Positions 2,307-22,400 of a DNA stretch of 22,930 nucleotides are shown here, piece by piece (the stretch's first letter is position 1; each line of letters opens with the position of its first letter). Origin of the DNA: a virus. The position numbers and the translations under genes were made by a program. The notes under the pieces are model-generated. The model had not been told where the DNA came from and searched no databases. It was given only the letters and a program-made list of their open reading frames with translations. The stretch lies in the IMG/VR virus record IMGVR_UViG_3300045131_001142, positions 1 through 22,930 of that record; one strand, written 5' to 3'.

Positions 2307-2726
2307 ATGGAAAACAACAGATTTGACATTGAACAAGAAACAATGAAAGCACAGAACAAGCTGATAAAGGTATTCACTGGGGGAACGGCACACAACAGAC
2401 GACTTTTGACAAACAATGACATTTATAAGATAGCGGGGATAGAAAGACAAGTGCCGATTGTGAAACAACCTATTTGTGAACATTGCGAGCGAGTAGTTAT
2501 ATGGGATTGGGAATATGATATGTTTGGCAGAGAAGTCCCACTGGCAGTTTGCGAATATTGCGGAACGATAACAAAGAACCCTATGACCTATGGCGAGTAC
2601 CTTATGAACGGATATGACATACCTGCTACGGTTACTGGTGCAAAAAGACAACAGAGCGAGGCGGCGAGAGTGCTTATAAACATGATGTTCAATATGAAAG
2701 GAAGAAACGGGGTAATAACAGAATGA
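2307..2726 (+). CDS. Zinc-ribbon-like small phage protein
   Basis: This 139-residue protein has two CxxC knuckles: CEHC (C57, C60) and CEYCG (C82, C85), 21 residues apart. That is the usual spacing of a zinc ribbon that binds one zinc ion. The segment between them is rich in aromatics (VVIWDWEYDMFG). The N-terminal part is polar and includes a T-N-N-D-I-Y-K-I-A-G-I-E segment; the C-terminal 30 residues are basic and could be helical. It starts after AAGAGGGG, and its stop overlaps the next start by 4 bases (ATGA), so the two are probably translationally coupled. Sitting between portal and scaffold, it could be a minor head protein or a nucleic-acid-binding protein made with the head genes. 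No function can be assigned from sequence alone. Confidence 0.8.
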   Translation: MENNRFDIEQETMKAQNKLIKVFTGGTAHNRRLLTNNDIYKIAGIERQVPIVKQPICEHCERVVIWDWEYDMFGREVPLAVCEYCGTITKNPMTYGEYLMNGYDIPATVTGAKRQQSEAARVLINMMFNMKGRNGVITE

Positions 2727-3106
2727 AGATTAAATTTTCAAACAACTATGAACTTAAAAAGAAGTATGACGGGACACTTACACCAATGAAATTCGTGGAT
2801 CAGGAACAGTACGGCATGAAGAAGATTGACAACTGGTACGGCGGCAATATGACAAGACTTGCAAATGTCGATGATACCTCACTCATGCTTGTGCTGAACA
2901 AACAGTTAAAGACCATTGACGTAGGGTATGTCATAGGCAGAGAGAACGAAGTGCCGTTGGAGGATTGTGCAATATTCGGGATAGAGGTTGAATTTGCAGA
3001 TAGTATGTCACTTGTTGAATCAGACAATGACGAGGGACTTGTAATCTCACCCGAACAACTCGACATAAAGAAGAAACCGGTAGCAAGGCGCAAAGTGCGT
3101 AAATAA
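2723..3106 (+). CDS. Hypothetical protein of the head module
   Basis: This 127-residue protein begins MKIKFSNNYELKKKYDGTLT, and its ATG overlaps the stop of the zinc-ribbon gene (ATGA). The middle is mixed beta-like sequence (LMLVLNKQLKTIDVGYVIG), followed by an acidic stretch (about residues 93-108) and a very basic tail, KKKPVARRKVRK. The basic tail suggests contact with nucleic acid or with an acidic partner, such as the very acidic scaffold encoded next. It has no signal peptide or membrane segment. I do not recognise the family. Its place in the portal-to-scaffold interval makes a head-assembly role plausible but unproven. Confidence 0.75.
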   Translation: MKIKFSNNYELKKKYDGTLTPMKFVDQEQYGMKKIDNWYGGNMTRLANVDDTSLMLVLNKQLKTIDVGYVIGRENEVPLEDCAIFGIEVEFADSMSLVESDNDEGLVISPEQLDIKKKPVARRKVRK

Positions 3107-3125
3107 CCACTTATTATATATTTCT

Positions 3126-3178
3126 TACGTTGGTGACGGTAACAACCAAAATATACGTTGATGACGGTAACAATCAAA
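3126..3178 (+). repeat. Imperfect 25-bp tandem direct repeat before the scaffold gene
   Basis: The 25-base unit beginning TACGTTGGTGACGGTAACAA occurs at 3126-3150 and again at 3154-3178 with two differences (G to A at the eighth base, C to T near the end). The period is 28 bases. The second copy runs directly into the AAAGGAG ribosome binding site of the scaffold gene. It could be a duplicated leader, a protein- or RNA-binding site that sets scaffold expression, or a chance slippage product. Confidence 0.75.
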
Positions 3179-3190
3179 GGAGAAAGAAGT

Positions 3191-4075
3191 ATGTTGTTAG
3201 AAGAAGATGAGAAAACCACGCCAATGCCTATTGAGGAAGTAAACGAACTTGACTTGAACAAACTCATGAAAGGAATCGAGCAGGAACAACTTGAAGAAGA
3301 TGACGAAGAAAACGATGATGAAGTAATCATTGAGGGTGACGAAGATGAAAACGATGCCGACAATGACGATGCAGAAGTCGAAGAACCGGAAGAAGAAACA
3401 AGCGACACCGAAGATTCCGAATCAGACGAGATTGACTTGGAAGCTGACACAAAAGGCAAACAAGTGCCAATGGCAAAGTATGTAGAAGAACGCAAGAAAA
3501 GACAAGAGGAACAGGCAAAGATACAGGCGCTTGAACTTCAACTAAAGTCTTTACAACCAAACAAGCAAGACGATGAGGTATCGCAGTACAGGCAGTCAAT
3601 AGTTGATGAATATACCGGAATGGGCTATGAATCGGACTTTACCGAATCCCTTGCAGATAAACTTACAAATCTTTACAAACTGGCATTGGGGAATAAAAAA
3701 GAGGAAAAAGAAGTAGTTGATAAGGATATGTTGGAGATAATCAAACTGAAATCCGAAAGCACCTACTACGACAATGCAGACAGTTTTGCAGACAAGATAA
3801 AAGAATCCATGAAGAAACATGGGGTAACTGCAAAACAGGCGTACAATATGCTTGTAGAACCCACAGTACGCCAAAAGGAACTTGAACAACGTACCCTTGC
3901 AAAGGGGACAGGAAGCCAATCCAAAAAGGAAAGCACAATCCAAAGCAAAGGCGGTTCTTCCTCAACAGTAAATACGCTGAAAAGCCAATCTGACAGGGAC
4001 GCACTAAAAATGCTGCAAGAGAGTTTTCCAAATGACGGATGGGACGAGAAAAAATACTTAGCCACAAGAAGATAA
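3191..4075 (+). CDS. Capsid scaffolding protein
   Basis: This 294-residue protein is strongly acidic and lies directly before the major capsid gene, the classic place for a scaffold, the internal protein that guides procapsid assembly and then leaves. Residues about 1-90 are dominated by Asp/Glu runs. Residues about 90-125 (KYVEERKKRQEEQAKIQALE) form a likely coiled coil. The rest is helical and charged, with a Ser/Gln/Lys-rich stretch near residues 240-265. The C-terminus ends in basic residues (KKYLATRR), as is usual for scaffolds that touch the coat through a basic C-terminal hook. I chose ATG 3191, which has AAAGGAG 8-9 bases upstream; in-frame TTG 3158 and ATG 3161 have no ribosome binding site and lie inside the direct repeat. 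Confidence comes from composition and position, not from a recognised motif. Confidence 0.8.
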   Translation: MLLEEDEKTTPMPIEEVNELDLNKLMKGIEQEQLEEDDEENDDEVIIEGDEDENDADNDDAEVEEPEEETSDTEDSESDEIDLEADTKGKQVPMAKYVEERKKRQEEQAKIQALELQLKSLQPNKQDDEVSQYRQSIVDEYTGMGYESDFTESLADKLTNLYKLALGNKKEEKEVVDKDMLEIIKLKSESTYYDNADSFADKIKESMKKHGVTAKQAYNMLVEPTVRQKELEQRTLAKGTGSQSKKESTIQSKGGSSSTVNTLKSQSDRDALKMLQESFPNDGWDEKKYLATRR

Positions 4076-4095
4076 AATAATAGGAGGACAAAATC

Positions 4096-5037
4096 ATGGC
4101 AGCTAAAACTAATTTAACAACTCTTTCAAAAGCAACAACCGCACTTTGGGATACATACTGGACACCCAACTGGGAACAGTACCCAAAAGAATATTCACAG
4201 TGGAATACAATGTACGGCAAGGATCAAGTCGTAGGGTATTACAACACAATCGGAAACCTTAAAACCGCAGTAGCATTGTCAGATGGTGCTGACTTCCCTT
4301 TCGAAGCAATCACACAGGCATTTGAAACAACCATCACCGCCGCACCTTACGCAAACGGTATGGAAATCACATGGTCCCTTATCAAACAGGCACAGAAACT
4401 TTCAAACATCGTATCCGAAGCAGAAGTTTATGCGAGGGTAGCTTCCCTTGTATCCAAACTTGAAGCAATAGGTATCGCACCCTGGGACAACGCATTTACA
4501 ACCAATCTCGCAAACGGAGTTCCCTTGTGTTCAGCTTCCAATCCATGTAACGATACAACCGGCTCAACCAATCTCACATATTCCTCTTTGGCTACCGGAC
4601 CTGCTTTCGGTACAGGCGGATATGCCAATGTCATAACGGCACTTGAACTCTTTGCGAACATGAAAGACCACCAGGGCAATCCAGTTCCGTCTATCCCGTC
4701 AAGGTTCATGACACATTCACAAAATCAGTTCAAACTCAAAGCATTGTTTGAATCGCAGACAGTACCTCTTGCAACCGCCAACACATCAGAGAAAAACGTC
4801 ATTCCTAATCTGACGCCGGTATTCTCTAACTACCTCACAAGCAAGACTGCATGGTTCATCGAGGACAAGAGAATGGATAGACCTCATGGCATCTGCCAGT
4901 ATCTCAATTCCGTTCCTACACCTGAAACAAAGACCGAGATATTCCAGAAATCAAGGGGCATCGGTATATCAAGTGGTTTCTTCATGGGTGCTGGTGCAGT
5001 ATCCAACGTAGGTATCGTAGGTTCAACCGGATTATAA
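4096..5037 (+). CDS. Major capsid protein
   Basis: This 313-residue protein follows the scaffold by 20 bases, with a strong TAGGAGGAC ribosome binding site. Length, position and composition fit a HK97-fold major capsid protein. It has few lysines in the core, many Ala/Thr/Asn/Gly residues, and an N-terminal helical part (LSKATTALWDTYW) that could be the N-arm. The middle part (residues about 135-175) is a small-residue loop containing two cysteines (PLCSASNPCND). The C-terminal part has IEDKRMDRPHGIC and a glycine-rich end (GFFMGAGAVSNVGIVGSTGL). It has no obvious prohead-protease gene next to it, which agrees with a separate scaffold. A strong terminator follows, as expected for a very highly expressed gene. 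Identification rests mainly on context. Confidence 0.87.
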   Translation: MAAKTNLTTLSKATTALWDTYWTPNWEQYPKEYSQWNTMYGKDQVVGYYNTIGNLKTAVALSDGADFPFEAITQAFETTITAAPYANGMEITWSLIKQAQKLSNIVSEAEVYARVASLVSKLEAIGIAPWDNAFTTNLANGVPLCSASNPCNDTTGSTNLTYSSLATGPAFGTGGYANVITALELFANMKDHQGNPVPSIPSRFMTHSQNQFKLKALFESQTVPLATANTSEKNVIPNLTPVFSNYLTSKTAWFIEDKRMDRPHGICQYLNSVPTPETKTEIFQKSRGIGISSGFFMGAGAVSNVGIVGSTGL

Positions 5038-5145: not shown

Positions 5146-7434
5146 ATGCCAACCTTAAAAACAATCAATGTGACTTTCACTGGTTCAAACGGAAACGAAG
5201 TTCCAGTCTTTGACGATATGGTGATAGGTGAAGAGGGCGAACACAGGAATACAAAGCTATCCCTTACATTGCCTGATGCGTGGGAAGCCTTAAAAGACCT
5301 TGACCCTCTTGTCAAACTATATCTGAATTATCTGAACATCAAAGGCAGAGGTGGCATACTGGCAGGAATCGACATAGTAACCGATGGGGTATACGAATTT
5401 GAGATTCCCAAGGATATGCTATATGCGGCTGAAACCGTCATTTGGTTTTCTCTCAAACAAGTGATTGATTCTGAAGAAACACGAATAGCCAAATCGCAGA
5501 TAATAAGAGCCACTGTCAATGTGGGGTATGATGTAGGCACTGCCACCGCACCGTTTGGGAACGATATAATCCAACAGTTGCTTGCAAGGATAGAAGCAAG
5601 TGAAGATGCCATTGACTTAAGGGAACTGCTTGCCAACAAGGTAGATGCTTTTACAGAAACTCCTGATGATACAAACTATCCTACAGAAAAACTTGTGTAT
5701 GATAATCTTGCCTTGAAACTCAACAAGGATTTTACTGCCTTTACCGCAGAAACAACTGTTGCTGATACTGACATATTACCAATGAATAAAGCAGATAAGA
5801 CACTAAAAAAACTGTCATGGACTTTAATAAAATCCACTCTCAAAACCTACTTTGATTCCTTGTATCCTGCCAAGAACACTGCCATCACTGGTGCTACAAA
5901 GACAAAAATAACCTACGATGCGAAAGGACTTGTTACAAGCGGTGCAGATGCTACTACTGCTGATATTTCTGATAGTACAGACAAGAGATATGTTACAGAT
6001 AATGATTTGCTTGAAATAGCAAAAGTAGAAGATAAACTTGATATCGCTGAAATGCCTATTCGTGTATGGAAATCTACAACACCTTACTTGACTGGTGCTA
6101 TGGTATATAGACGATTTATAGCAGGTGCTTATGAAGTCATGGAATTTTGGTATGCGTTGCAAAACAGTACAAATAAAGACCCAAGCACAGAGTCTACATA
6201 CTGGCAACCATATCTTGCAGGCAGGGCATTGTCTGACGGTGCAGGAAATATCATTACAACAAAATACGTTGCAAAAGAAACTGGCAAATCTCTTATGTCT
6301 GACACTGCAATAACTGACCTTACAGACGGTGGAGATACTATACTTCATACGCATGATAGCAAAGTAAATGTATCCGCTATCGTGAATGACTTAACCACTG
6401 GTGGCACTACCGTTCCTTTATCAGCTGAAATGGGTAAGACATTGCAGACAAGTAAACTCGCAAAAGATTTTACAGGCGAAACCGCCGAAACAATAATAGT
6501 GGATACTGACCAATTTCCGATGAACAAGACAAACGGCACAATTAAAAAAACTGCATGGACTTTAATCAAATCCACTCTTAAAACCGCACACGATTTATTG
6601 TATATCCCGAAATTGTTTAATGACTTAGATTCTTTGACTGCATCCGAATTGTCAGGTTCAGCCATATTGCCTGTTAATAAGTCAGGGTTATTAAACAAAA
6701 TATCATTCAATACATTAAGCAGTTACCTCATGGAATATTCTACTCATGTCAGTTTAGCCACTATAGCACAGACAATCAAGGGTGCAATAAATGAGTTAGT
6801 TACTACTGTTGGAAACAAATTAGCCAAAACCACCAACATAACATCAATCGACGACACAGGTATAGCTGACGGTGAAATCATGGTGGCTAATCTGACAGGC
6901 AAGAAGATTGAAACGAGCAATGTGTTGATTGGGGATTTGGCAACTACCGTTAATTTGGCTAAAAAGACAGGCAAAATATACGAATATGTGGTAGCAACGT
7001 CCATGACATCTCATACAATAACTGGACTTGACGTATTGGCAGACGGTGGATATGAAATCGAGATAAAAATTCCATACAATGCAACCCCATATTCCTTTGG
7101 ATTGAACTATTTTGTAAATGCAGACACCACTACTACAAATTACTATGTCGCAACAAATACAAATAGTGCAAGAATCTCACAACAAGCAGACAAGAATCAG
7201 ATAATTTTTAATCATGACCTGTATATGCGTGCAACATCAACCAATCCAGTTATCATGGGTAGGTCATGGACATGGGTAGACCCTAACACTATGGGTATGG
7301 TTTCTACGGAGAGATGGAGATATTCCCCTGCATCACTACCAACAAACATAACGTCACTGACTATTAATAACAGTTATGCAACAGACATACCCGTTGGAAC
7401 GGTCATAACGCTATACAAAAAAGGAGTGTTGTAA
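5146..7434 (+). CDS. Tail fibre / receptor-binding protein with carbohydrate-binding-like domain
   Basis: This 762-residue protein is probably part of the adsorption apparatus. Residues about 1-125 resemble the N-terminal attachment domain of baseplate upper proteins (BppU type) of Gram-positive phages. Residues about 195-241 and 441-487 are two copies of a shaft block containing the DTD...PMNK and WTLIKSTLKT motifs; a weaker third copy covers about 493-533. Residues about 300-348 (WKSTTPYLTGAMVYR ... ALQNSTNKDP ... YWQPYL) match the pattern of small carbohydrate-binding modules of the chitin-binding CBM5/12 type. Near 395-440 the DLTTGGTTVPLSAEMGK motif is common in phage fibres. The C-terminal 110 residues are beta-like and may form the receptor-binding tip. 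It starts after AACGAGG and has its own promoter. The fibre role is well supported; the ligand is unknown. Confidence 0.83.
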   Translation: MPTLKTINVTFTGSNGNEVPVFDDMVIGEEGEHRNTKLSLTLPDAWEALKDLDPLVKLYLNYLNIKGRGGILAGIDIVTDGVYEFEIPKDMLYAAETVIWFSLKQVIDSEETRIAKSQIIRATVNVGYDVGTATAPFGNDIIQQLLARIEASEDAIDLRELLANKVDAFTETPDDTNYPTEKLVYDNLALKLNKDFTAFTAETTVADTDILPMNKADKTLKKLSWTLIKSTLKTYFDSLYPAKNTAITGATKTKITYDAKGLVTSGADATTADISDSTDKRYVTDNDLLEIAKVEDKLDIAEMPIRVWKSTTPYLTGAMVYRRFIAGAYEVMEFWYALQNSTNKDPSTESTYWQPYLAGRALSDGAGNIITTKYVAKETGKSLMSDTAITDLTDGGDTILHTHDSKVNVSAIVNDLTTGGTTVPLSAEMGKTLQTSKLAKDFTGETAETIIVDTDQFPMNKTNGTIKKTAWTLIKSTLKTAHDLLYIPKLFNDLDSLTASELSGSAILPVNKSGLLNKISFNTLSSYLMEYSTHVSLATIAQTIKGAINELVTTVGNKLAKTTNITSIDDTGIADGEIMVANLTGKKIETSNVLIGDLATTVNLAKKTGKIYEYVVATSMTSHTITGLDVLADGGYEIEIKIPYNATPYSFGLNYFVNADTTTTNYYVATNTNSARISQQADKNQIIFNHDLYMRATSTNPVIMGRSWTWVDPNTMGMVSTERWRYSPASLPTNITSLTINNSYATDIPVGTVITLYKKGVL
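5728..6606 (+). repeat. Duplicated shaft block within the fibre gene
   Basis: The blocks at 5728-5868 and 6466-6606 encode about 47 similar residues each. Their most alike part, 5816-5847 versus 6554-6585, is 32 bases with only two differences, although the flanking codons have drifted. Copies are 738 bases (246 codons) apart. Near-identity at DNA level suggests recent duplication, gene conversion or strong constraint. Confidence 0.7.
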
Positions 7435-7788: not shown

Positions 7789-10404
7789 ATGGGAAACTTT
7801 AACAGAAAAGCGGAACTCGCATCAACCGCAGGCACAGAAGAACTTATTTGGAACAAGACAGGGGCGTATGTATTCCCTGCAACCGCACAGAGAATGGAAG
7901 TAGCATCATCTGATGGCAAGGACGTAATAGGTGGTGTAGGGGCAAGGACAGTCAAAGTTGATTATCTTACCGACACGTTCATTGAGAAATCAGAAATTGT
8001 AAGGCTTGGCGACTTTGCTACAAACAAGGTTGCAAAGGGTGATATGGATACAGTCACCGCAGGTACAGAATGGAAGAACTATGGTGTGCAGACAAGTCTT
8101 GATGTTTCAAGTGGTGCTGCGGTATTCACTCCGGAATATCAGTATGACGGAATAATGCAAGACATAAACGGCGCTACAATTCCAGTAACAAGCGGCAAGA
8201 AGTATTTTGTAAGGGCAAAGTCAAGTGTGGCAAGTGGATCAAAACAACTGGCGGTAAGACTATTATCAAGTGGTGGAGTTAAACAGGTAGAAACTGCAAC
8301 AGTCATAGGCACAATAGGTGCTGCGGGTGCGGGAAATGCAAGTGTAATAGTTACTGCGGCAGGCATGGGAAATTCGCCTAAGACAATACTTGTAGCAGTT
8401 GCAAACAATGATACTGCGGCACAGGTAGCAGGTAAGATAAGAACTGCACTTGGTTCTGACTCCGATGTAACCGCATTATTCACAGTTGGTGGTGCTACTG
8501 ACAAGGTTATACTCACACGAACAATCAATGCCGCCAATGACGCAACCCTCAATATTGCAACTGCGAATGGAACTTGCACAGGACTTACTGCTGCACCAAC
8601 ATCAGCAAACACTACGGCGGGTGTAGCAACACAAGGGACAAAGCAAGTAGAAACCGCTACTGTTGTTGGGACTATCACATTAGGCGGTAAGGCAAAAGTA
8701 ACCGTAAGCAATATCAACAACAAGGGAACACCATTTGAAATACTTGTAGACGTTGCGGGAACAAAGCAAGTAGAAACCGGAACTGTTATATGTGGTAGTG
8801 GTTCACTCCTAACTGGTGGTAATGCGTCAGTTATCGTAACCGCAACTGGAATGACAAACTCACCTAAAACAGTAACAGTAACGGTAGCGGGAGCTAAGCA
8901 AGTGGAAACGGCAACCGCAGTAGGTACCGTATCAACATCAGGATTTGCATGGGTAACAATAACATCAAAATGGCACGCAGCACTAAGGATTGACGTACCT
9001 GTTGTCTTAAATGACGATGCTTCGGCAATAGCACTTGCCATTCGGACAAAACTCGCCTCACTCAAAGTCATTACCGATTACTATGCGGTATCCGGTGCAA
9101 CAGACAAGGTTATACTTACAAGCAACAAGGCGGTAGCAAACGATTCAATCCTTAACATAAGAATCGAGAATGGAACTTGTGTTGGTGTAACAACCGCCGC
9201 AACTTCCGCCAATACAACCGCCGGTGTACTTGCAGATAATACCGCACAAGTAGCGACAAAGATAAGGGCGGCACTTGTAGCAGACGCAGATATAGGACAC
9301 CCTGATACTGGGTTCTTCACCGTATCCGGAACTGGAAACGATATTGTGCTGACAAAGAACACCATAGCCGCCAATATTGCAAACATGAACATTTCAATCG
9401 ACAATGGGACCTGTACCGGGATAACAACTGCTGCGACTTCGACAAATACAGTAGCGGGAGTAGCGGCAGACGATGCAAGTGCAATCGCAGGCAAAATGAG
9501 AACTGCATTAGGATTATATTCACAGATAACAAGTTACTATGACGTAAGTGGCGCAACCGACAAAATCATACTCACTTCAAAGCAGAAACTTGCTAATGAC
9601 AGCACCTTGAACATAGCTACGGCAAACTATACCTGCACAGGTATCACCGCAGCCGCTACAAGTGCCAATACAACCGCAGGAGTGGCAGAAACGTATGTGA
9701 GTGCATTAACTAACTTTGATGTGGCTACAGCCGACACAGACACCGTTGTAAGTGCAATAGTAACCGCAACAGGAACTTCCACCTCGATAGCATTTGCAAT
9801 AGTGGATACGACAACCGCAGATTTTGTAGCGGTAACTCTTGACGATATTGGTATGTATGAACTCGATACGTTAGGATACCAGGATAAATCACTTGCATCT
9901 TTGAAACTGTACTTTGAAACATATATCCTTACTGCTGAAACAGTTAAAAGAACATTCAATGCGGATCTGTTCAGAATCCAAAGGGCATCGGTGTTGTCAG
10001 CAGGAACAGAAATCGACAATGCGGGCAACATCAGTGTCAAGGAACTTACAGGCGGAAGTGATTATGTCTATGCCTACATAGCGGCAGGCAAGATGGTATC
10101 AGAACAGTTGGTAATGACAGTCCCAAGCGGCAAGTATCTTTGCATAAACTCAATAATCGCAAGTGCATTGTTGGCGGCGGGTGGAAAATTATCTAAAATA
10201 ATGGTAAAGTCAAGCTACAACAGAGCAGGTGGAGTGTATCACCCCGCATTACTCTACACAACTGATTTCAGCTTTACCATTAAAGACAATACGGTAGAAA
10301 TTCCAACAGAACTTTCATACCCGGAGAAAACAGACTTGCTTGTAACAACAAGTGGTGACGCTACAAACGCAATCAATGTAACCCTAAACGCTGATATGTA
10401 CTGA
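7789..10404 (+). CDS. Modular virion surface protein with nested repeats
   Basis: This 871-residue protein is very rich in Ala, Thr, Val, Ser and Gly and is predicted to be nearly all beta. The N-terminal 40-50 residues (YVFPATAQRMEVASSDGKDV, then GGVGARTVKVDYLTDTF) and the C-terminal 120 residues (AAGKMVSEQLVMTVPSGKYL ... PEKTDLLVTTSGDATNAINV) resemble the two ends of a structural protein family common in podovirus tails, from memory. Between them, residues 163-633 consist of eight half-modules: a1 163-205, b1 206-279, a2 283-323, a3 324-367, a4 368-407, b2 408-482, b3 483-560, b4 561-633. The 'a' halves start GxKQVETxT; the 'b' halves carry KIRxAL, VSGATDKxIL and GTCTGIT...TAGV. It is probably an adsorption or decoration protein exposed on the virion. 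It ends 30 bases before a strong terminator. Confidence 0.75.
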   Translation: MGNFNRKAELASTAGTEELIWNKTGAYVFPATAQRMEVASSDGKDVIGGVGARTVKVDYLTDTFIEKSEIVRLGDFATNKVAKGDMDTVTAGTEWKNYGVQTSLDVSSGAAVFTPEYQYDGIMQDINGATIPVTSGKKYFVRAKSSVASGSKQLAVRLLSSGGVKQVETATVIGTIGAAGAGNASVIVTAAGMGNSPKTILVAVANNDTAAQVAGKIRTALGSDSDVTALFTVGGATDKVILTRTINAANDATLNIATANGTCTGLTAAPTSANTTAGVATQGTKQVETATVVGTITLGGKAKVTVSNINNKGTPFEILVDVAGTKQVETGTVICGSGSLLTGGNASVIVTATGMTNSPKTVTVTVAGAKQVETATAVGTVSTSGFAWVTITSKWHAALRIDVPVVLNDDASAIALAIRTKLASLKVITDYYAVSGATDKVILTSNKAVANDSILNIRIENGTCVGVTTAATSANTTAGVLADNTAQVATKIRAALVADADIGHPDTGFFTVSGTGNDIVLTKNTIAANIANMNISIDNGTCTGITTAATSTNTVAGVAADDASAIAGKMRTALGLYSQITSYYDVSGATDKIILTSKQKLANDSTLNIATANYTCTGITAAATSANTTAGVAETYVSALTNFDVATADTDTVVSAIVTATGTSTSIAFAIVDTTTADFVAVTLDDIGMYELDTLGYQDKSLASLKLYFETYILTAETVKRTFNADLFRIQRASVLSAGTEIDNAGNISVKELTGGSDYVYAYIAAGKMVSEQLVMTVPSGKYLCINSIIASALLAAGGKLSKIMVKSSYNRAGGVYHPALLYTTDFSFTIKDNTVEIPTELSYPEKTDLLVTTSGDATNAINVTLNADMY
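8275..9687 (+). repeat. Half-module repeat array a-b-a-a-a-b-b-b
   Basis: The 'a' units lie at 8275-8403, 8635-8757, 8758-8889 and 8890-9009 (40-44 codons each). The 'b' units lie at 8404-8625, 9010-9234, 9235-9468 and 9469-9687 (73-78 codons each). Within the 'a' units a 19-base stretch beginning ACAAAGCAAG is identical at 8638-8656 and 8761-8779. The order is compatible with modules nested at one hinge: a2[a3[a4-b2]b3]b4. Confidence 0.8.
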
Positions 10405-10509: not shown

Positions 10510-11292
10510 ATGGAGATAGTACAAGATTTTATTCCCGTAGGCAGAAAGAACAGACCTTCTCACCCAATGCTTCCAACGTATATCACAGTACATGAAACCG
10601 GAAATAAGAGTGTTGGTGCCAATGCACAGATGCACGCAAGGTATCTAAAGGGCAGTACCGCAAACGATGCACCGGTATCGTGGCATTACACTGTATCGAG
10701 TGAGCAGATATATCAGCACTTGCCAGTCATTGAAAGTGCGTTTCATGCGGGTGACGGTGGACAGGGCATAGGAAATAGGAACTCGATAGGTATAGAGATA
10801 TGTGTTAATGCAGACGGAAACTTTGAACAGGCTAAAGCTAATGCACAATGGTTAATCAGAACACTCATGGCAGAACGGCACATAAAGATAGAGAATGTTG
10901 TGCAACATAACCATTGGTCCGGGAAAAACTGTCCACAGACAATGCGAGAAACAAATACATGGAAACCATTTATAGACGGAATACAGAAAGTAGAGGGGAA
11001 CACTATGACAAACGAAACAAAACTATGGCAAGGAACATTGGTAAAGGCGGGGTATCCACTTGTGATTGACGGAAAGTTTGGACCTGCATCATTATCGGCA
11101 AGTAATTCAATATTAACTGCACGAAATGTAGAAATTGCTTCTCTTAAAAAGGCAATAGAGGGGCAGAAGAAAACAATCGCAGACCTCAATGCAAAACTTA
11201 GTACGGCTAATACAAATGTTGTAGCCTTGACTGCAAACAACAAGACACTGACTTCTAAGATCACGCAGATACACACAATATCAGCAACATAA
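10510..11292 (+). CDS. N-acetylmuramoyl-L-alanine amidase endolysin
   Basis: This 260-residue endolysin cuts the bond between N-acetylmuramic acid and L-alanine in peptidoglycan. Residues about 18-150 form an Amidase_2 (T7 lysozyme-like) domain. Probable zinc ligands are H28 (in YITVHETGN), H133 and C141 (in QHNHWSGKNCPQ), with the 8-residue spacing between the last two seen in T7 lysozyme. Other family marks are SWHYTV (57-62), AFHAGDG (77-83) and GIEICVN (94-100). Residues about 166-200 look like a partial peptidoglycan-binding repeat (DGKFGP), and about 205-250 form a likely coiled coil. It starts after AGAGAGG with its own promoter. An internal in-frame ATG at 11005 has its own ribosome binding site and could yield the C-terminal part alone. 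It has no signal peptide, so export would depend on the holin encoded next. Confidence 0.93.
   Translation: MEIVQDFIPVGRKNRPSHPMLPTYITVHETGNKSVGANAQMHARYLKGSTANDAPVSWHYTVSSEQIYQHLPVIESAFHAGDGGQGIGNRNSIGIEICVNADGNFEQAKANAQWLIRTLMAERHIKIENVVQHNHWSGKNCPQTMRETNTWKPFIDGIQKVEGNTMTNETKLWQGTLVKAGYPLVIDGKFGPASLSASNSILTARNVEIASLKKAIEGQKKTIADLNAKLSTANTNVVALTANNKTLTSKITQIHTISAT
10992..11007 (+). promoter_or_regulatory. Internal ribosome binding site and start in the endolysin gene
   Basis: AGAGGGG at 10992-10998 is followed after 6 bases by ATG (11005-11007), in frame with the amidase at residue 166, exactly at the border between the catalytic domain and the C-terminal wall-binding/coiled-coil region. 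The product would be 95 residues. Confidence 0.55.
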
Positions 11293-12728: not shown

Positions 12729-12813
12729 CATATATCTTTGAAAGGGGTAAAAAGTTATGAAAAGGGTAATAGTCTTTTGGCTTATTATCGGAATACTGAT
12801 GGGGGTAAATTTT

Positions 12814-14763
12814 ATGTCATTTCTAAACGAAACAAGCGGTAAGGTAAGAATGAAACCATTGACTATTGGTGATGGGGTAGATAAAGTCCATTCGCCTTTA
12901 CAGGTATCTCCCAACATGGCTACTGATATGCTGAATTTATCGAGTAAGGATTTCCCGACACTTACCCAAAGATACGGCAGGGATAAGTACCCTGACATTC
13001 CTTATACGGCGGAAACCGTTACCGAAACATACACAGGTGATATAAAGCCTTATATGTCGAGCAACGGAGAATTGCACTATCTCATGGTAACAACAGACAC
13101 AATTCCTATTTTTTACTGGTATATAGTAAAAAACTACACACAGCCTGCAATCTTACTATATTCTGATTCACTCGTTACAATAAATGTGCCAAGTTATAAG
13201 TTTGCAGACACATATACAACGGGTAATTTTTCAGAGTTTAACGGGCAGATATTCTTCTGTTATTTTACATATAATAGCATTGAATATGTAAGGCATATTA
13301 TTTCGTATGATATGGATACACAAGCGATAAATGATACATACGCTACAATCACAGGAGATGATACTGCAAGACTTTCACCATCGGCTATATATTATGAGAG
13401 GTTGTTTTTAGCAAGTGATTCTATAATATATTTTTCAGAAGCACAAGAACCTACGGATTTTACTTCAATAGGCAGTGGAACTATATTTTTGAAACAAGGC
13501 GGTAGACCTACTGCGCTTATTCCTATGCGTGATAGAATGATTATAAGCACCGCAACTTCACTGTTCGTACTTATGGGGAATACAAAGGATAGTTATTCTA
13601 TTCATTTGCTATCAGATAACTTAGGAATCAGAAATCCAAAAGGAATTGTTCAGAAAAACGGTGTTGTCTATTTTATTGGAACTGATTATGATATTTACGA
13701 ATACAACGGTAACACCTTGCTGAACATTTCAAGAGAACCTATAGATACTGGTTCAAAGAGTGGTGTCAAGGGTGGATTCGACTATGGCTTGATTACTACA
13801 GATTCATTGGCAATCGAAAACAATATGCTTTACTGCACAGGATTTGCAGACAATAACCTCATATATGTTTTTGACCTTAATAAAAGACGGTGGTATATAG
13901 AAGATTATCCGTTCGATAGTCAATACATAATAGCATTTAGCGATACCACAAGGGCATATTATATGGGAATCAAGCTGACAGGTGGAACTTATGCTACGGT
14001 AACGAGAAATTTAATTCTTGCAAATAATAAAGGGACAATAGACCAATATATAGCAATAGATACGGCAGGAACTAAACAAAAGGAAACCAATACAATAGTA
14101 GGTACTGTTGCAGGGGCGAGTGGTGTTTACTGTACGGTCACGTTAACACATGACCTATTTTATGGTACAAATAGAGCATTTGGTGTATCTGTAACATCAG
14201 GGGATAACGCCACTACGGTTGCAACAAAAATCAAGGATACGTTATTAACGTCAAGAGATGTATATGAACTGTTCAATATAACTACAAGTGGTGCAAATCT
14301 CATACTTGAATCCAAATATGCCATCGCAAACGAAAGTTCATTTAATGTAGAGGTTAAAAACGGTACTTGCACAGGACTAACCACAACTAATTCAGCTAAT
14401 ACTACGGCAGGAGTTTCAAATACATATAAACTCGTAGACTACACTCCCACTGAATACTTTTGGCAGTCACCTTGTTATCAATTAGATACCACTGGCAGAC
14501 AACTATTAAAATCAGTACACTTCTCTTACTATTCTCCAAATGGAACTGAAATAGGACTTTATATTTCAAAGACTGTAGACGGTGATGATTTTGAAAGAGT
14601 AGCTACATTACCGACTTCCGCATTAAAGCAATCACAGAAATTCGTATTGCCTATAAACAGATACAGATTGTCTGACTGGGTAAGAATCAAGATACAAGGG
14701 CATGGCGCTATTGAAATCTATAACATGACTATGGAATGGCGTGTATTAGGAAAGTTGAGGTAG
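12814..14763 (+). CDS. Tail nozzle / tail tubular protein B-like
   Basis: This protein has 649 residues from ATG 12814 or 668 from ATG 12757. Residues about 150-330 carry the marks of podovirus tail nozzles (T7 gp12 / P22 gp10 type): YYERLFLASDSIIYFSEAQE, PTDFTSIGSGTIFLKQGG and MRDRMIISTATSLFVLMG, then GVVYFIGTDYDIYEYNG. This is the repeated propeller-like pattern that lines the DNA exit channel. Residues 419-534 are an inserted a-b module matching those in the 871-residue surface protein. I prefer ATG 12814 (GGGGG, 8 bases upstream; MSFLNETSGKVRM is a normal-looking start). The upstream start adds a hydrophobic 19-residue leader (MKRVIVFWLIIGILMGVNF) that a cytoplasmically assembled tail protein should not need, yet it too has an AAAGGGG ribosome binding site. 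The role in the tail is well supported. Confidence 0.83.
   Translation: MSFLNETSGKVRMKPLTIGDGVDKVHSPLQVSPNMATDMLNLSSKDFPTLTQRYGRDKYPDIPYTAETVTETYTGDIKPYMSSNGELHYLMVTTDTIPIFYWYIVKNYTQPAILLYSDSLVTINVPSYKFADTYTTGNFSEFNGQIFFCYFTYNSIEYVRHIISYDMDTQAINDTYATITGDDTARLSPSAIYYERLFLASDSIIYFSEAQEPTDFTSIGSGTIFLKQGGRPTALIPMRDRMIISTATSLFVLMGNTKDSYSIHLLSDNLGIRNPKGIVQKNGVVYFIGTDYDIYEYNGNTLLNISREPIDTGSKSGVKGGFDYGLITTDSLAIENNMLYCTGFADNNLIYVFDLNKRRWYIEDYPFDSQYIIAFSDTTRAYYMGIKLTGGTYATVTRNLILANNKGTIDQYIAIDTAGTKQKETNTIVGTVAGASGVYCTVTLTHDLFYGTNRAFGVSVTSGDNATTVATKIKDTLLTSRDVYELFNITTSGANLILESKYAIANESSFNVEVKNGTCTGLTTTNSANTTAGVSNTYKLVDYTPTEYFWQSPCYQLDTTGRQLLKSVHFSYYSPNGTEIGLYISKTVDGDDFERVATLPTSALKQSQKFVLPINRYRLSDWVRIKIQGHGAIEIYNMTMEWRVLGKLR
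14068..14415 (+). repeat. Single a-b module inserted in the nozzle gene
   Basis: The module encodes 116 residues: an 'a' half beginning GTKQKETNTIVGT and a 'b' half with ATKIKDTL, TSGANLILES and GTCTGLT...TAGV. It matches the repeat family at 8275-9687 in a different gene. The flanking nozzle sequence reads on smoothly on both sides. Confidence 0.78.
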
Positions 14764-15393: not shown

Positions 15394-16461
15394 ATGGCTA
15401 CAGTAACGAATTATAAATATGGTGACAAGGGTGACGGTGTACTTGCTTTACAACGTCAATTAAACTCACAAGGATACGGACTAAAGGAAGATGGAAGTTT
15501 CGGGCCTTTAACTCAAAGTGCTTTAAGGGACTTTCAAACAAAGAATAATCTTACTGTAGACGGTATCTACGGGACACAGACTGCGGGAATGTTCAATACA
15601 TTGGCACAGAACAAGCCTGTAGTAGCCAACAACGCACCCGTAGTAGCACAGACAAGTAATGTTACTCCAAATGTTGCAACGGCTCAAAACGGCACACAGA
15701 ACCCTTACGATATGAAATTTAATTATGATGTTACTAAAGATGTTGGGTTTCAAAATGCAACTGCTTTGGCAAAATCCAAGATAGCGGAAGAAATGGCGGC
15801 TCGTGGAATAGGTGGAAGTACCATTGAACAGGAAAGAATAGCACAATCTATCGCCGGACTTAACTTAGATTATACAAATGCTGCATTTAATAAGTTTTCT
15901 ACAGAACAACAGTTGGCAATCCAACGAGATCAAGAACAGTACAATCGAAATCGTCAAGCTAAAATGGACGCACTTGAAAAGGTGCAGACAATAGGCAATG
16001 GGATATTCGACAATGAAAGTGCTAAGTTATGGGGAGTTCCGCCAGGGACAAGGACAACAGATAGAATAGCAAGGGACGCACAAGAGGCACAAAGGATAGC
16101 CGACAAAAAAGCAGCAGAGGCAAATGCAAGAGTAGTGGAACAGAAAAACACTTACTACAAGGATATTCTGAAAGCCAACCAGTCCATATTCAACACCGAT
16201 CCAACACAGGCGGTCAATAATATCCTCAATAATCCTTTGTTGTCTGACACAGAGAAAATGAACATGATAAATTCAATGAGTTCAACAAGTGTTGATGATT
16301 TTGGCAATGTAATACCAACCGCAGGCAAGACAGGACTTGAAGTATTACAAGACATAAAAAACGCAGAAAAAAAGAAACAAAATGACAAAGATTCATTCAA
16401 CACAAGATATGGCATTAACGTAGAGGGTGCAACGGGAAATCCTTTTGGCAGACCATTTTAA
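15394..16461 (+). CDS. Internal virion protein with N-terminal peptidoglycan-binding domain
   Basis: This 355-residue protein starts behind AAGGAGG. Residues about 8-68 form one peptidoglycan-binding type 1 domain (GDGVLALQRQLNSQGYG, EDGSFGPLTQSALRDFQ, VDGIYGTQT), the wall-anchoring domain usual in hydrolases, but no catalytic domain follows. Residues about 70-105 are a Thr/Asn/Pro/Val linker. Residues about 120-275 are helical and Ala/Gln/Arg-rich, with MAARGIGGSTIEQERIAQS, a pattern common in internal or ejection proteins of podoviruses (T7 gp14 / P22 gp7 region). The C-terminus is polar and ends NPFGRPF. Lying between tail genes and the giant protein, it probably travels in the virion and helps position the ejection machinery at the cell wall. 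The domain call is firm; the ejection role is inferred from context. Confidence 0.78.
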   Translation: MATVTNYKYGDKGDGVLALQRQLNSQGYGLKEDGSFGPLTQSALRDFQTKNNLTVDGIYGTQTAGMFNTLAQNKPVVANNAPVVAQTSNVTPNVATAQNGTQNPYDMKFNYDVTKDVGFQNATALAKSKIAEEMAARGIGGSTIEQERIAQSIAGLNLDYTNAAFNKFSTEQQLAIQRDQEQYNRNRQAKMDALEKVQTIGNGIFDNESAKLWGVPPGTRTTDRIARDAQEAQRIADKKAAEANARVVEQKNTYYKDILKANQSIFNTDPTQAVNNILNNPLLSDTEKMNMINSMSSTSVDDFGNVIPTAGKTGLEVLQDIKNAEKKKQNDKDSFNTRYGINVEGATGNPFGRPF

Positions 16462-16474
16462 GGAGGAACATTCA

Positions 16475-19400
16475 ATGGCAGACGATTTAATGGACTTTAT
16501 CAAGAGCAAGAGTGTAAATGCAAGTAATAATGGATTGAATTTAGTTCAAAAGACTATCAGAACTCCTATTAGACCTACAAGGGCACAACAAGACCAAGCT
16601 ACACGCAATTTCTATAAAGTGCAAAAGGCAGTAAAGCCTATAATGGATTTTAAAATGGCCGAAGAAAAAAGAGTGAAAGAAGCCAAAGCAAAAGAAATGT
16701 CAGACAGGGCGGCGATAAATAGAAAGAATATAATCAACAAGAAGTTAGGATTGCCTCTTGAAGTTTATGTTGCCGATGGACTTACACCTGCTGAACGCAT
16801 AAATCAGTTTGCCAAAGACAAGGCGGTTATTGATATGGTGGGTGGTGCTAAATTGCCTAAGTCAATAAAGCCATACAAACCTACTGCATCAGAAAGTGCG
16901 ATAACACAGAAGATACAGGCTTCACAAAAACAGGCAAAGCAAACTGCAATAGACAATGCTTCTGATTTTTACAAGATAACTGAACACTTGAATAATATGC
17001 AAAGCGACAAGAACTATGCCAAAGAATATAATCAGCAGATTAAAATGGAAAAGGCAATGGAAACTGTCAAGAAGAATGAAAGTACACCAATGGGTAAATC
17101 CACAAACGAGATATTATCCTTTGCGGGTAACTATGTCAATTCTCTTTTAGGCGGTGGACTTGTAAGTAATCTGACACAGACTTCTCAAAGCGGAATGACA
17201 AAAGAACTTGCAAGTATTCCGGACATAAGACAGACGCTCGATGCTTTAAGTTACAATTCGCCAATATCAGCAGGATTGGGAAATGTTGCAGGACAGATAA
17301 CCAACATGGTTGTCATGACTAATATGCAAAATCAGTTGTTGTCACAAGGATTTAAACTCGCTGAAATTTCATCAGCATCAAGAATTGCAAGAGATTTGAA
17401 CTATATCGGCATAGGTGTTGCTACACAGTTGCCACAATCGGTATTCAAAAGGGATGCGGTTCAACAGTTAATCAAAGAACGTGGCGAAGTAGGGACTGAA
17501 ATAGCATTAAGTGCGTTGTCATGGTATGCAGGTGGAAAACTTGAACAGTTGTTTGACGGTGCCATAGGACGTTCTCTTTTAAATGCCAATCAGATGTTGG
17601 AGGCAAGGCAGACATTTCTTACACTTGCAAGACAAAAGCAATTTTTAAAAGCGGTTAGCGGAACAGTTGGCAAAGGACTTACAAAGGTTCCTCCACTTGC
17701 AAAGATAATAACTGAATTTGCACAATCAAGCGGTATGGCACTCACAGACCAACTGACAGGCAGACAGGACTACATGAACAATCCTGCGTTGTTGGCACAA
17801 GAGTTTGCCGTTGATTTTATATCGCTTATGATATTAGGCAAGATGGGAATGGACGGAACCAATAAGGCGGCTGCTCGTTCTGATTTATTCAAAGCGAAGA
17901 AAAACTACCTAAGAGAAGTAAGCGGCGAGAACAGAACTGAAAATGAAATATCCGTTGCAAAGACTAATCTCATGGTGGACATTGACAATATCGTTCAGAA
18001 ATACGGAATAAGTGAAGCTGAAATAAAACCTATGCAGGCTATATTCAAGGACATTCTGACAAAGACACCTGAACAGATATATTCAGAAGTAGGAAGTCCT
18101 ACGGAAGCGAAAGCTGAAATGGATATGGAAGAACAGACCGCAAGGGTATTGGCTGACGATCAGAACAAGGAACTGTCACCAAAGCGTTCAAGCACAGATA
18201 ATGAAGTGGATTCAACCACTCTATTCAATGACGCAGTAAGAAATGGTGCAGTACCGGGACTAACCGCAGAAGATGTAGCAAACGCTGAATTTAAGTCCGA
18301 GCCGGTAAATCAAGACGCAATGGATATGGCTACGAACATGAAAGCCATGTTTGGCGTTGATATTCAATTCGGTAATTTCGGCGACACTAACATTGATTCT
18401 CGTTGGAATGGCTTTTACAATCCGGATACAAATGTCATAACGATAAACACTAAAAGTGACAAGGCGGTATCTGCGGTAGTAATGCACGAAATAACTCACG
18501 CAATGGAACAGAACAATCCAAAGGCTTATGCTGAACTTCAAGATATGGTGCTTAAATATACCGCCGACAACAATATTGAACTTGCTGATATGACAAAAGC
18601 GTATTCTGACAATCCCGATGTAGATACGAAAGGTTCAGATATTGCCAATTCGGAATATACCGCAGATATGCTTTTAAGACTTACTGAAAACGGCAATATT
18701 GGATTGAAGTTTTGGGACGATGCCTTAAAGAATGGTAAGAAAAATGTCGTTATGAGATTTGTTTCTGATATGAAACGTGCCTATGCGGTATTGAAATCTA
18801 AATCATATAAGCAGAAATCTGTTGAGAATGGCATTGTAGGACTATATAAAATCATAAGACAAGCCGACACCGCACTTGCTAAATTCAAAGGTGAGGACAA
18901 GGCTTTTGTTAAAGCTGAAACTAAGGTTGAAGAAGTCAAGCCTAAACAAGAAGTTAAGCAAGAATCGGTTACTGCAAAAACTGAAACTAAATTAAAGGAA
19001 CGAGGAACAGACGCCGCTTGGGAAACTCTCGATAAAAATGTAAAGTCTGCAATAGCAACAGATGTGGAAAAAGAAAGCCCACAACAATTAGCATATACTG
19101 TTGGTTCATTAAAAGAGGAAATATCTTTAATTAAAAATGGGTATCAGTCAAAATACAAAGAAAATCTGCTACAAAAGATAGTTGATAAGATGGATAAAAA
19201 AGTTGATGAATACTATTCAAAAAGACAAGAATTAATGAAAGAAACTGAAAATCCATTAGAACTGTTAACTACTGAACCTATCACAAAAGAAGTTACAACA
19301 CCTATCAAAGAGAAAGCCGTAGCTACCAAACCTACGCCAAAGAAAGCTATTAAGAAAGGTGAATTAGTCGCAAAGGACAACACGAATAAAATAGCCAATA

Positions 19401-22400
19401 AAAAATATACTTCATGGGAAGATGTTGCAGGAAAACAAGACATTCCACAAGGCAAGACTTATGACGAATATCAGCAGATGATAGACGATTACGAAGATGT
19501 ATTGGCAGCTAAATACGGTGAAGAAGAATTAATGAATATCCCATCAATGTATTTTAAAAATAATTCACTGGAAGAAAACAGAGGAAATACCAAAGCCACT
19601 AATAGCGAAATCGCAAAATATTCCGCATTACTTGACGCAAGAGATAAAGTCAGTAGTGATGAAAAAAACGCTATGGCAGATTCTATAATTAAAAGAATCA
19701 ATCCAATAGAAAGTATGTGGACTCCAAGTAAAGACGAAATAAAAGATACTTTGTCTGATATGATGAACAACGCAGAGTTAAGAATGGTGTTTGGTAATAA
19801 CAATGCTGAAACCTCAAAAGAACAGATAGAAAACGAACTATACAATGACTTTAAATGGAATAATGATTTTCCGCAAGAATATTTCGATACTTACAAGGAC
19901 GTATTGGACGAGTACAATCTACAGAAAAGCAAGGGGTTATCTAATTTTGGTGATTTAATTCCGTTTATTGATACGATAAAACAAATATCCGATGTTATTA
20001 CCAACGAAAATGCTGATTATAGCAAAAAGCCAGACTATAAAGAAGTAAAAGAACCAAAGAAAACTCCTATCCAAAGGGTGATAACCGACACTCCTAAAGA
20101 ACTAAGGGATAAGATTAAAATTGCAGAAGAAACTTATCAAAAAGCATACGCTAAAGAATTTGAAACGTATCCAAGAGATAAAGAAATATCAAATGCAGTT
20201 TTAAAATCCAAGCGTGAATTGGATTCTTTAAAGCGAGATTATAAGATTTTACAATTCCAAAAGCCTGAACTATTTAAAAAGCCTACCAAACAACCCGCTA
20301 CAAAGTCCACAGATACACCTACAACGAAGTCTATCAAAAAAGTCGATAATGTACCTGTCGAGGAAGTTAAGGCGGTTAAACAGGAAGCTAAGAAACCAGT
20401 TAAGGTTGAGGAACCTATAAAAGAATCTGATTTGCCAATAGGTTTTAATAAGTATGAGAAAGAACCAACAGGAACTGCAAAAATGGCAACAGCAAGTAAG
20501 GCGGATTCGTTTTCAACTTATATTGACACTGATTCCTATATAGGCAACGGGCATTATGTTCTGTTAAAGAGTGAAATGGATACAAAAGTATCAGATAAAT
20601 TCACAAAAAGCAAAACTCCAAACAAAAATATAACTGAAAACAATATTATTGATATGTTATCGCCCAAGCAAATTCCAGAAAGCGAATCGCAAGTTGTTGC
20701 CTCTAAAGATGATGGGGATTTTAATGTTGTTATTTTAAAAGGCGAAGATGATTACGTTGCCATGCAAAAAACTTATTATGATTATTTTAAATCAAAGGGG
20801 TATGAGTTAAGAGCATCAACACCAGTGGGTGCAATATATATGTTAAAAAAAGGCAAAATGATAGGAATGGTATTGCCAACACGAACCGATACTGAAACAT
20901 TAAAATATTATATAAAATACGGAAAGATGCCAGTTGAATCAAAAACAAACAAGCCACTCCAATTCTCCCTTGTGGGCAAGAAAATCAGCAAAGGATTTGG
21001 AACTGAACTTGCAACTAAATTAGGAAGTGAAGAATACAAGAAAGAACTATTAGACGCAGAAGAAAAATTTGCCTACGAGGTTGTAGGTTCTAAGCAACTA
21101 TTGAAAGACAAGGCTACCGAACTTGCAACTGGGAATGTCGCAGATAACGTAACTAAATACAGGGCAGACTGGAACAACCTTATAAAAGAGGGCAGAAAGA
21201 TAAAGCCTGATGATTGGGCGAAAGCTATTGCACTATTAAATCATTACAAGGTTGTAGATACTCCTGAAACAAGGGCAGAGGCTATTGATTTAAGGGCAAG
21301 TATCGCAGTTGAATTAGGTGATAGTGCAAGGTTTATGCAGGCAATATCAATGCTTGAAAAGGCAGGCAAGGACGTTTATTTGAAACACCTTGAAAAGACA
21401 CTTGAAAAATACTATCAATCCGGACTTAAAAAATACGGTGAGAAGTTTTGGAATGAGAAAGGCAATATGCGTGATGTTTCAAGGCTTACTGCTGACGAAC
21501 AAAAGGCGATACTTGCCACAAAAGAAGATGATATTGTTGCAAGGGATAGGATAAAAATGCAGATAGCGTCAAGGATATTAAGCGAGGCGCCTTATAGCTT
21601 GATGGATCAGCTAAATTCGTTCCGTAAATTTGCAATGCTAACTTCACCAAGAACACACATAAGAAACATAACCTCAAATGCTTCATACATGGCTATAAGA
21701 AGATTGGACAATGCGTTCAGTACGATAATTCAAAATGCCTTTGTGAAGAACGATAAAGCTATGGTCCGGTCAATTACCGGTGACAAGGCAAAGCAGAAGA
21801 TAGTGGAAGATTACATGAAAGCAAACAAGAAAGCTATTCAAAGCGGTGTTGAAAGTGATTTTTACGGTACTAACAAGCTATTAGGCGTTACAAGGACAGA
21901 CTTAAATCCGTCATGGAAAATATTTAAACCTCTCAATGCTTATATGCAGGCAAACGGTAAGATGCTCGCAGAATGGGAAGATACTCCATTCTTTAACAAT
22001 GCCTATAAATTTGCTCTTGTGCGTTACCTCAAAATGCAAAAACTAAACGAAGTCACCGCAGACGCACATCTTTATGGACTTCAACAGGCACTTGACGCAA
22101 CATTCAAGGCTACCGACAAGATATTAAAGGGATACATGAACTTTAAGAACTCGTCCGTAGTAGGTAATTATCTTGCGGATACGGTCGTTCCATTCACAAA
22201 GACACCATACAATGTGGTAAAGCAGTCAATACTCCATAGTCCCATGGGATTTGTTTCGGGACTGGTAAATCTATCCAAGTACCTCAATGGCACTAACTTG
22301 ACACAGCTTCAAAGCGGCAAGATAGTAAAGCGTGGTGATGTTGAAACATTACAAAAGGCCATTGACGACATAGGCAAGGCTACAAGTGGTTCATTGTTGG

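Follow-up and report, generated by a model that had tools for sequence, protein, structure and literature searches.

Three copies of one small domain very probably lie nested within one another in an 871-residue phage protein, each outer copy being interrupted by the next at the hinge between its third β-strand and its α-helix. With a denoting the N-terminal half of the domain (β1-β2-β3) and b the C-terminal half (α-β4-β5), the stack a2-a3-a4-b2-b3-b4 would read a2[a3[a4-b2]b3]b4. This reading, which comes from sequence comparison, is well supported, and the support comes mainly from relatives of the protein: these display graded depths of nesting, balanced strings of halves and a nested order of pairing, and so bear out the nested arrangement proposed in the initial annotation of this DNA.

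Order of the half-modules and the interrupted host protein

The window, meaning the whole stretch of DNA analysed here, is the 22,930-base IMG/VR phage contig IMGVR_UViG_3300045131_001142 (positions 1 to 22,930), which carries genes of the portal, capsid-region, lysis and tail classes. Sequences of relatives were collected from both IMG/VR and bacterial genomes. Two half-module HMMs were built from 76 complete modules cut at the hinge, every open reading frame was parsed with them, and the models were later retrained. In the window protein they located one complete module, a1b1, followed by a2-a3-a4-b2-b3-b4 (Table 1), confirming the a-b-a-a-a-b-b-b order first read from the letters. There are four halves of each kind, as originally described, with lengths of 37-44 codons for a and 74-78 codons for b; the earlier ranges were 40-44 for a, which missed a4 with its 37 codons, and 73-78 for b. 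Similarly, the motif quoted for the start of the b halves, with K-I-R, holds with the exception of b2, which has A-I-R. The module ends are nearly constant (Q-V-E-T ... T-T-A-G-V).

Each half was detected independently, with 31-64 bits for a and 91-116 bits for b, and the halves are therefore not chance matches. Repeats in the DNA agree with the half-module register: each end motif is present in four copies, one pair of which is 90% identical. The others are mostly 66-73% identical, indicating that the copies are old rather than an echo of assembly. Under random placement the chance of n a halves followed by n b halves is 1/C(2n,n), which gives 1/70 for the deepest array (locus L040), 1/20 for the three-level stack of the window and 1/6 for an aabb lineage. 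Proteins are generally described as growing by duplication end to end. Like ordinary tandem domain repeats, the window protein has several copies of one domain; unlike in such repeats, nowhere between a2 and b4 does one complete module adjoin another, and this segment is not a tandem repeat. The succession of a1b1 and the stack is a tandem arrangement. The contiguous module in a second open reading frame is a natural control within the same phage.

Table 1. Features of the module-bearing reading frames in the window
Feature	Coordinates	Strand	Basis or remark
ORF, 871 aa, carrying the module stack	7789..10404	+	open throughout
Host domain (phrog_8198-type), N-terminal piece	7789..8028	+	flank-joined profile match
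CBM_4_9-like carbohydrate-binding jelly-roll domain holding the stack, N-terminal piece	8029..8277	+	weak
a1 half-module (β1-β2-β3)	8281..8400	+	half-module HMM
b1 half-module (α-β4-β5); a1b1 is a complete contiguous module	8401..8625	+	half-module HMM
a2, outer layer, N-terminal half, partner b4	8641..8763	+	HMM and pairing test
a3, middle layer, N-terminal half, partner b3	8764..8895	+	HMM and pairing test
a4, innermost layer, N-terminal half, contiguous with b2	8896..9006	+	half-module HMM
b2, innermost layer, C-terminal half	9007..9228	+	half-module HMM
b3, middle layer, C-terminal half	9229..9462	+	HMM and pairing test
b4, outer layer, C-terminal half	9463..9684	+	HMM and pairing test
CBM_4_9-like domain, C-terminal piece	9688..9876	+	weak, flanks joined
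Host domain (phrog_8198-type), C-terminal piece	9877..10401	+	flank-joined profile match
Single contiguous module (ab) in second ORF (12757-14763) of the same phage	14074..14415	+	half-module HMM

The intact 871-residue protein gave no match to Pfam or PHROGs. When an insert of 616 residues, comprising the modules and the CBM_4_9-like region around them, was removed and the two flanks were joined, phrog_8198 was matched over profile positions 63-248 with an E-value of 2.8e-6; the host protein thus becomes recognisable only once the insert is taken out. Module-free relatives of this phrog_8198-type protein were present at two loci (L287 and L289). The joined immediate flanks of the stack matched CBM_4_9 with an E-value of 0.019 and 15.7 bits, which is under the curated cut-off of 25.9. 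On this weak match, the stack may sit inside a CBM_4_9-like domain, which would itself sit inside the phrog_8198-type host protein. Searches of annotated phages by tblastn with the whole reading frame and with one module returned no match; flank-joined host sequences do find relatives there.

Three further reading frames of the window were noted. A tail-fibre-like frame at 5146-7434 has internally repeated motifs (ADTDILPMNKADKTLKKLSWTLIKSTLKT and similar), and a very large frame at 16427-22930 runs open off the contig end. The frame at 15394-16461, distant from the amidase gene (10510-11292), matches endolysin PHROGs through an N-terminal peptidoglycan-binding region.

Graded nesting among relatives

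Among the distinct reading frames of all fetched loci, balanced strings comprised 107 ab, eight aabb and one each of aaabbb (L049), aaaabbbb (L040) and abaaabbb (the window), so that the depth of nesting is three in the window and L049 and four in L040. The initial annotation had suggested looking in related phages for versions with one or two levels; one, two, three and four levels are all present. The remaining strings were abab (two), aabab (six), aab (one) and b (four). The aab string and three of the b strings are cut by contig ends, and the fourth b is a fragment of 68 residues. If each a opens a bracket and each b closes one, no intact array is left unbalanced, provided that abab and aabab are read as use of a second acceptor loop (see below). 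Two scans of the whole of IMG/VR for a-a junctions returned only contigs with an already known balanced array and a truncated one. The linkers are uniform, with about 3-5 residues at each a-a junction and 1-2 at each b-b junction. All layers were found by the same pair of HMMs and are 40-68% identical to one another; the inserted and the interrupted domains are therefore homologous. Elsewhere, single modules were found in tail sheath proteins (L002 and L020), major tail proteins and head-tail adaptor proteins.

Two host proteins provide graded series, each at a single site. In the first, encoded by the gene after the major capsid gene, Microcystis phage Mwe-Yong1 (L288) has no module, L042, L121 and L124 have one, and eight loci of the L003 type have two nested modules (L003, L006, L007, L009, L011, L019, L041 and L052). 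In the second, encoded directly after the capsid gene, a phage from Manatee Spring (MW202444) has none, L141 has one and L040 has four. When the outer module of L007 was reassembled from a1 and b2, its identity was 84% to the contiguous L042 module but 55% to the inner module of L007 itself. Likewise, a3 and b2 of L040 together were 81% identical to the module of L121, compared with 59-68% to the other layers of L040. The empty sites, together with the comparison of L042 and L007, indicate that one domain interrupts another that is contiguous in relatives lacking the insert. Where the series is clearest, it is the outer module that resembles the older single module; the inner one therefore arrived later, and the protein grew from the inside.

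The idea that a module was inserted into itself is upheld in that the insertion is self-homologous, but it is often not literal, because layers of L007 and L040 are closer to single modules of other phages than to their neighbours. Layers 1 and 3 of the window form a tree group that also takes in L049 (support 0.85-0.93), and local copying may therefore also occur.

Insertion was originally placed at the same internal loop each time. The β3-α hinge is indeed preferred, but the β1-β2 loop is also an acceptor: in L079, L094, L119 and L123 a complete module lies between β1 and β2 of another module. These arrays had been candidates for tandem or unbalanced strings (abab and aabab), a reading that was rejected because β1 is cut from its β2 by the complete module. 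In L119 and L079 the β1-β2 insertion occurs in the host protein and at the site where phages of the L003 type use the β3-α hinge. The nested pair of L094, on an Acidobacteria MAG contig, lies within a very large bacterial open frame of 4561 residues, and the architecture may thus extend beyond phages. In L167 and L169 (reading frame 2582-4921) two modules are in permuted register, starting at β2 and leaving an orphan β1 at the end, and come after an apparent discoidin-type domain. The host context of L040 and L141 recurs in L032 (reading frame 3605-4771), where a single module is flanked on either side by a domain of a different repeated phage type (NEVQT...).

Pairing of the halves and alternative explanations

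Partnership between a and b halves was assessed blind, from the similarities of each half to the matching halves of 69 non-redundant single modules, the resulting profiles being correlated. For the single modules themselves, matched halves gave 0.43 and mismatched halves 0.00, and the matched combination beat the swapped one in 96-98% of pairs. Among all possible permutations, the nested order came first in every one of the 11 arrays (1 of 24 for L040, 1 of 6 for L049 and the window, and 1 of 2 for each of the eight aabb arrays), in agreement with the predicted co-variation of a4 with b2, a3 with b3 and a2 with b4. It remained first when gap-rich columns were dropped and when up to 6 and 12 hinge-proximal columns were removed, except in L040, where it came second of 24 in two of three settings. 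The margin in the window was small (nested 0.11-0.13, parallel 0.08-0.09), and the window layers are divergent. Because the aabb arrays are mutually related and the layers of the window and L049 fall in one clade, the number of independent cases is below 11. As a pairing test, the highest joint identity to any single module is informative only where a close one is available; by itself it did not favour nested partners in the window, L049 or L040.

Repeats can mislead assembly, and this is the sole point in favour of regarding the nested order as an assembly or recombination artefact of a metagenome contig. The age of the DNA repeats, a reading frame that is open throughout, and the presence of the same architecture on contigs of many different metagenomes make such an artefact extremely improbable. 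Duplication in tandem of a and b as independent small domains, the alternative raised initially, could draw on the structure predictions, in which a halves alone form three strands and b halves a helix and strands, and on the clustering of two of the three window layers in the tree. Yet independent domains predict unbalanced strings and no pair-specific similarity, whereas every intact array is balanced and the pairing is order-specific. There is also no orphan a in an intact gene, intermediates such as aab or abb were never seen in intact genes, and reassembled outer modules are 81-84% identical to contiguous single modules. We therefore regard independent duplication as very improbable.

A nested origin could also be combined with a domain-swapped fold, the strands of an a half pairing with b halves of neighbouring layers. 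The sequence tests bear on origin rather than on contacts, and some of the recursively inserted HABAS domains in RNA polymerase SI3 are domain-swapped (PMC11515920). The pair-specific similarity suggests, without proving it, that original partners stay together, and a swapped fold is on balance unlikely.

Predicted fold and implications for phage virion proteins

An AlphaFold2 model of the window stack, built from a three-row alignment, had a usable pLDDT of 77 but a modest pTM of 0.57, and a model of the L040 array was similar (pLDDT 83, pTM 0.58). Every layer of both models is predicted to consist of three strands, the hinge, a helix and further strands. The best foldseek matches among solved structures were the Pseudomonas aeruginosa flagellin FliC and the tail sheath of Agrobacterium phage Milano; their probability was 1.00, but with E-values of 0.002-0.02 and TM-scores of 0.2-0.3 over 134-166 columns. 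By sequence, the module matched the Milano sheath with an E-value of only 7.6, and a search of solved structures gave no sequence relative with a convincing E-value. The module did not match any Ig family of Pfam, and antibody matches in foldseek had low probability.

In phage tail sheath proteins and flagellins the assembly core is built by the two terminal parts of the chain, N and C, and extra domains grow outward (PMC9230969). The chain of such extra domains leaves and returns through a loop, as that of the module arrays would, and the module itself occurs in sheath proteins; the extra domains are not described there as nested copies of one domain. Ig-like accessory domains of phage virion proteins, for which weak sugar binding has been proposed in work cited in PMC9230969, are promiscuous and swapped among virion protein types like the module, but differ from its predicted order, in which a helix lies between β3 and β4.

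Recursive insertion is already known from SI3 of the cyanobacterial RNA polymerase β′ subunit, where HABAS (barrel-sandwich hybrid) domains are inserted recursively (PMC11515920), to six levels (PMC13114784), and the architecture is therefore not new in principle. Both systems place a domain within loops of its homologues and do so over several levels. SI3, in contrast, is ancient and belongs to a single cellular enzyme, whereas the phage module is promiscuous, ranges in depth from 0 to 4 among related virion proteins and forms strings of n a halves and n b halves through one preferred hinge. What is new is the graded, recurrent series in phage virion proteins; a literature search that covered few subscription journals found no description of self-nested domain repeats in phages.

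The module is best regarded as an accessory domain that is promiscuous among phage virion proteins (sheath, major tail, adaptor and the product of the gene after the capsid gene) and enters loops as a unit, its own loop being among those entered. Sequence comparison shows that a module with constant ends was inserted time and again into the preferred hinge of its own kind. Each discontinuous module would close into its own fold, the chain running out through the a halves and returning through the b halves. The product would be an arm tethered twice, its two ends at the base, perhaps the long stalk envisaged initially. With its ends so placed, such an arm could be borne by a virion-protein loop and leave assembly undisturbed, a task to which a tandem chain would be less suited. 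The locations of the module, together with proposals for other extra virion domains (PMC9230969), suggest that the arm might serve in weak attachment to cell-surface sugars or in virion stability.

Both the module and the interrupted host were missed by Pfam and PHROGs until the layers were parsed, so that such proteins look like orphans; for annotation, parsing the layers is needed before the module or the window host protein becomes identifiable. These phages offer a natural system that spans every depth from no module to four levels. Since two host proteins each show a series at a single site, the steps, polarity and folding of recursive insertion are open to direct study. We tentatively propose, at somewhat short of an even chance, that a mobile domain inserting recursively into its own loop is a route by which phage virion proteins have repeatedly lengthened, and still lengthen, their loop-borne arms at the tip. 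Base-tethered ends would let capsid, tail and sheath proteins acquire such arms while their assembly goes on unhindered, and the depth n would differ between related phages much as the number of repeats does in tandem proteins.
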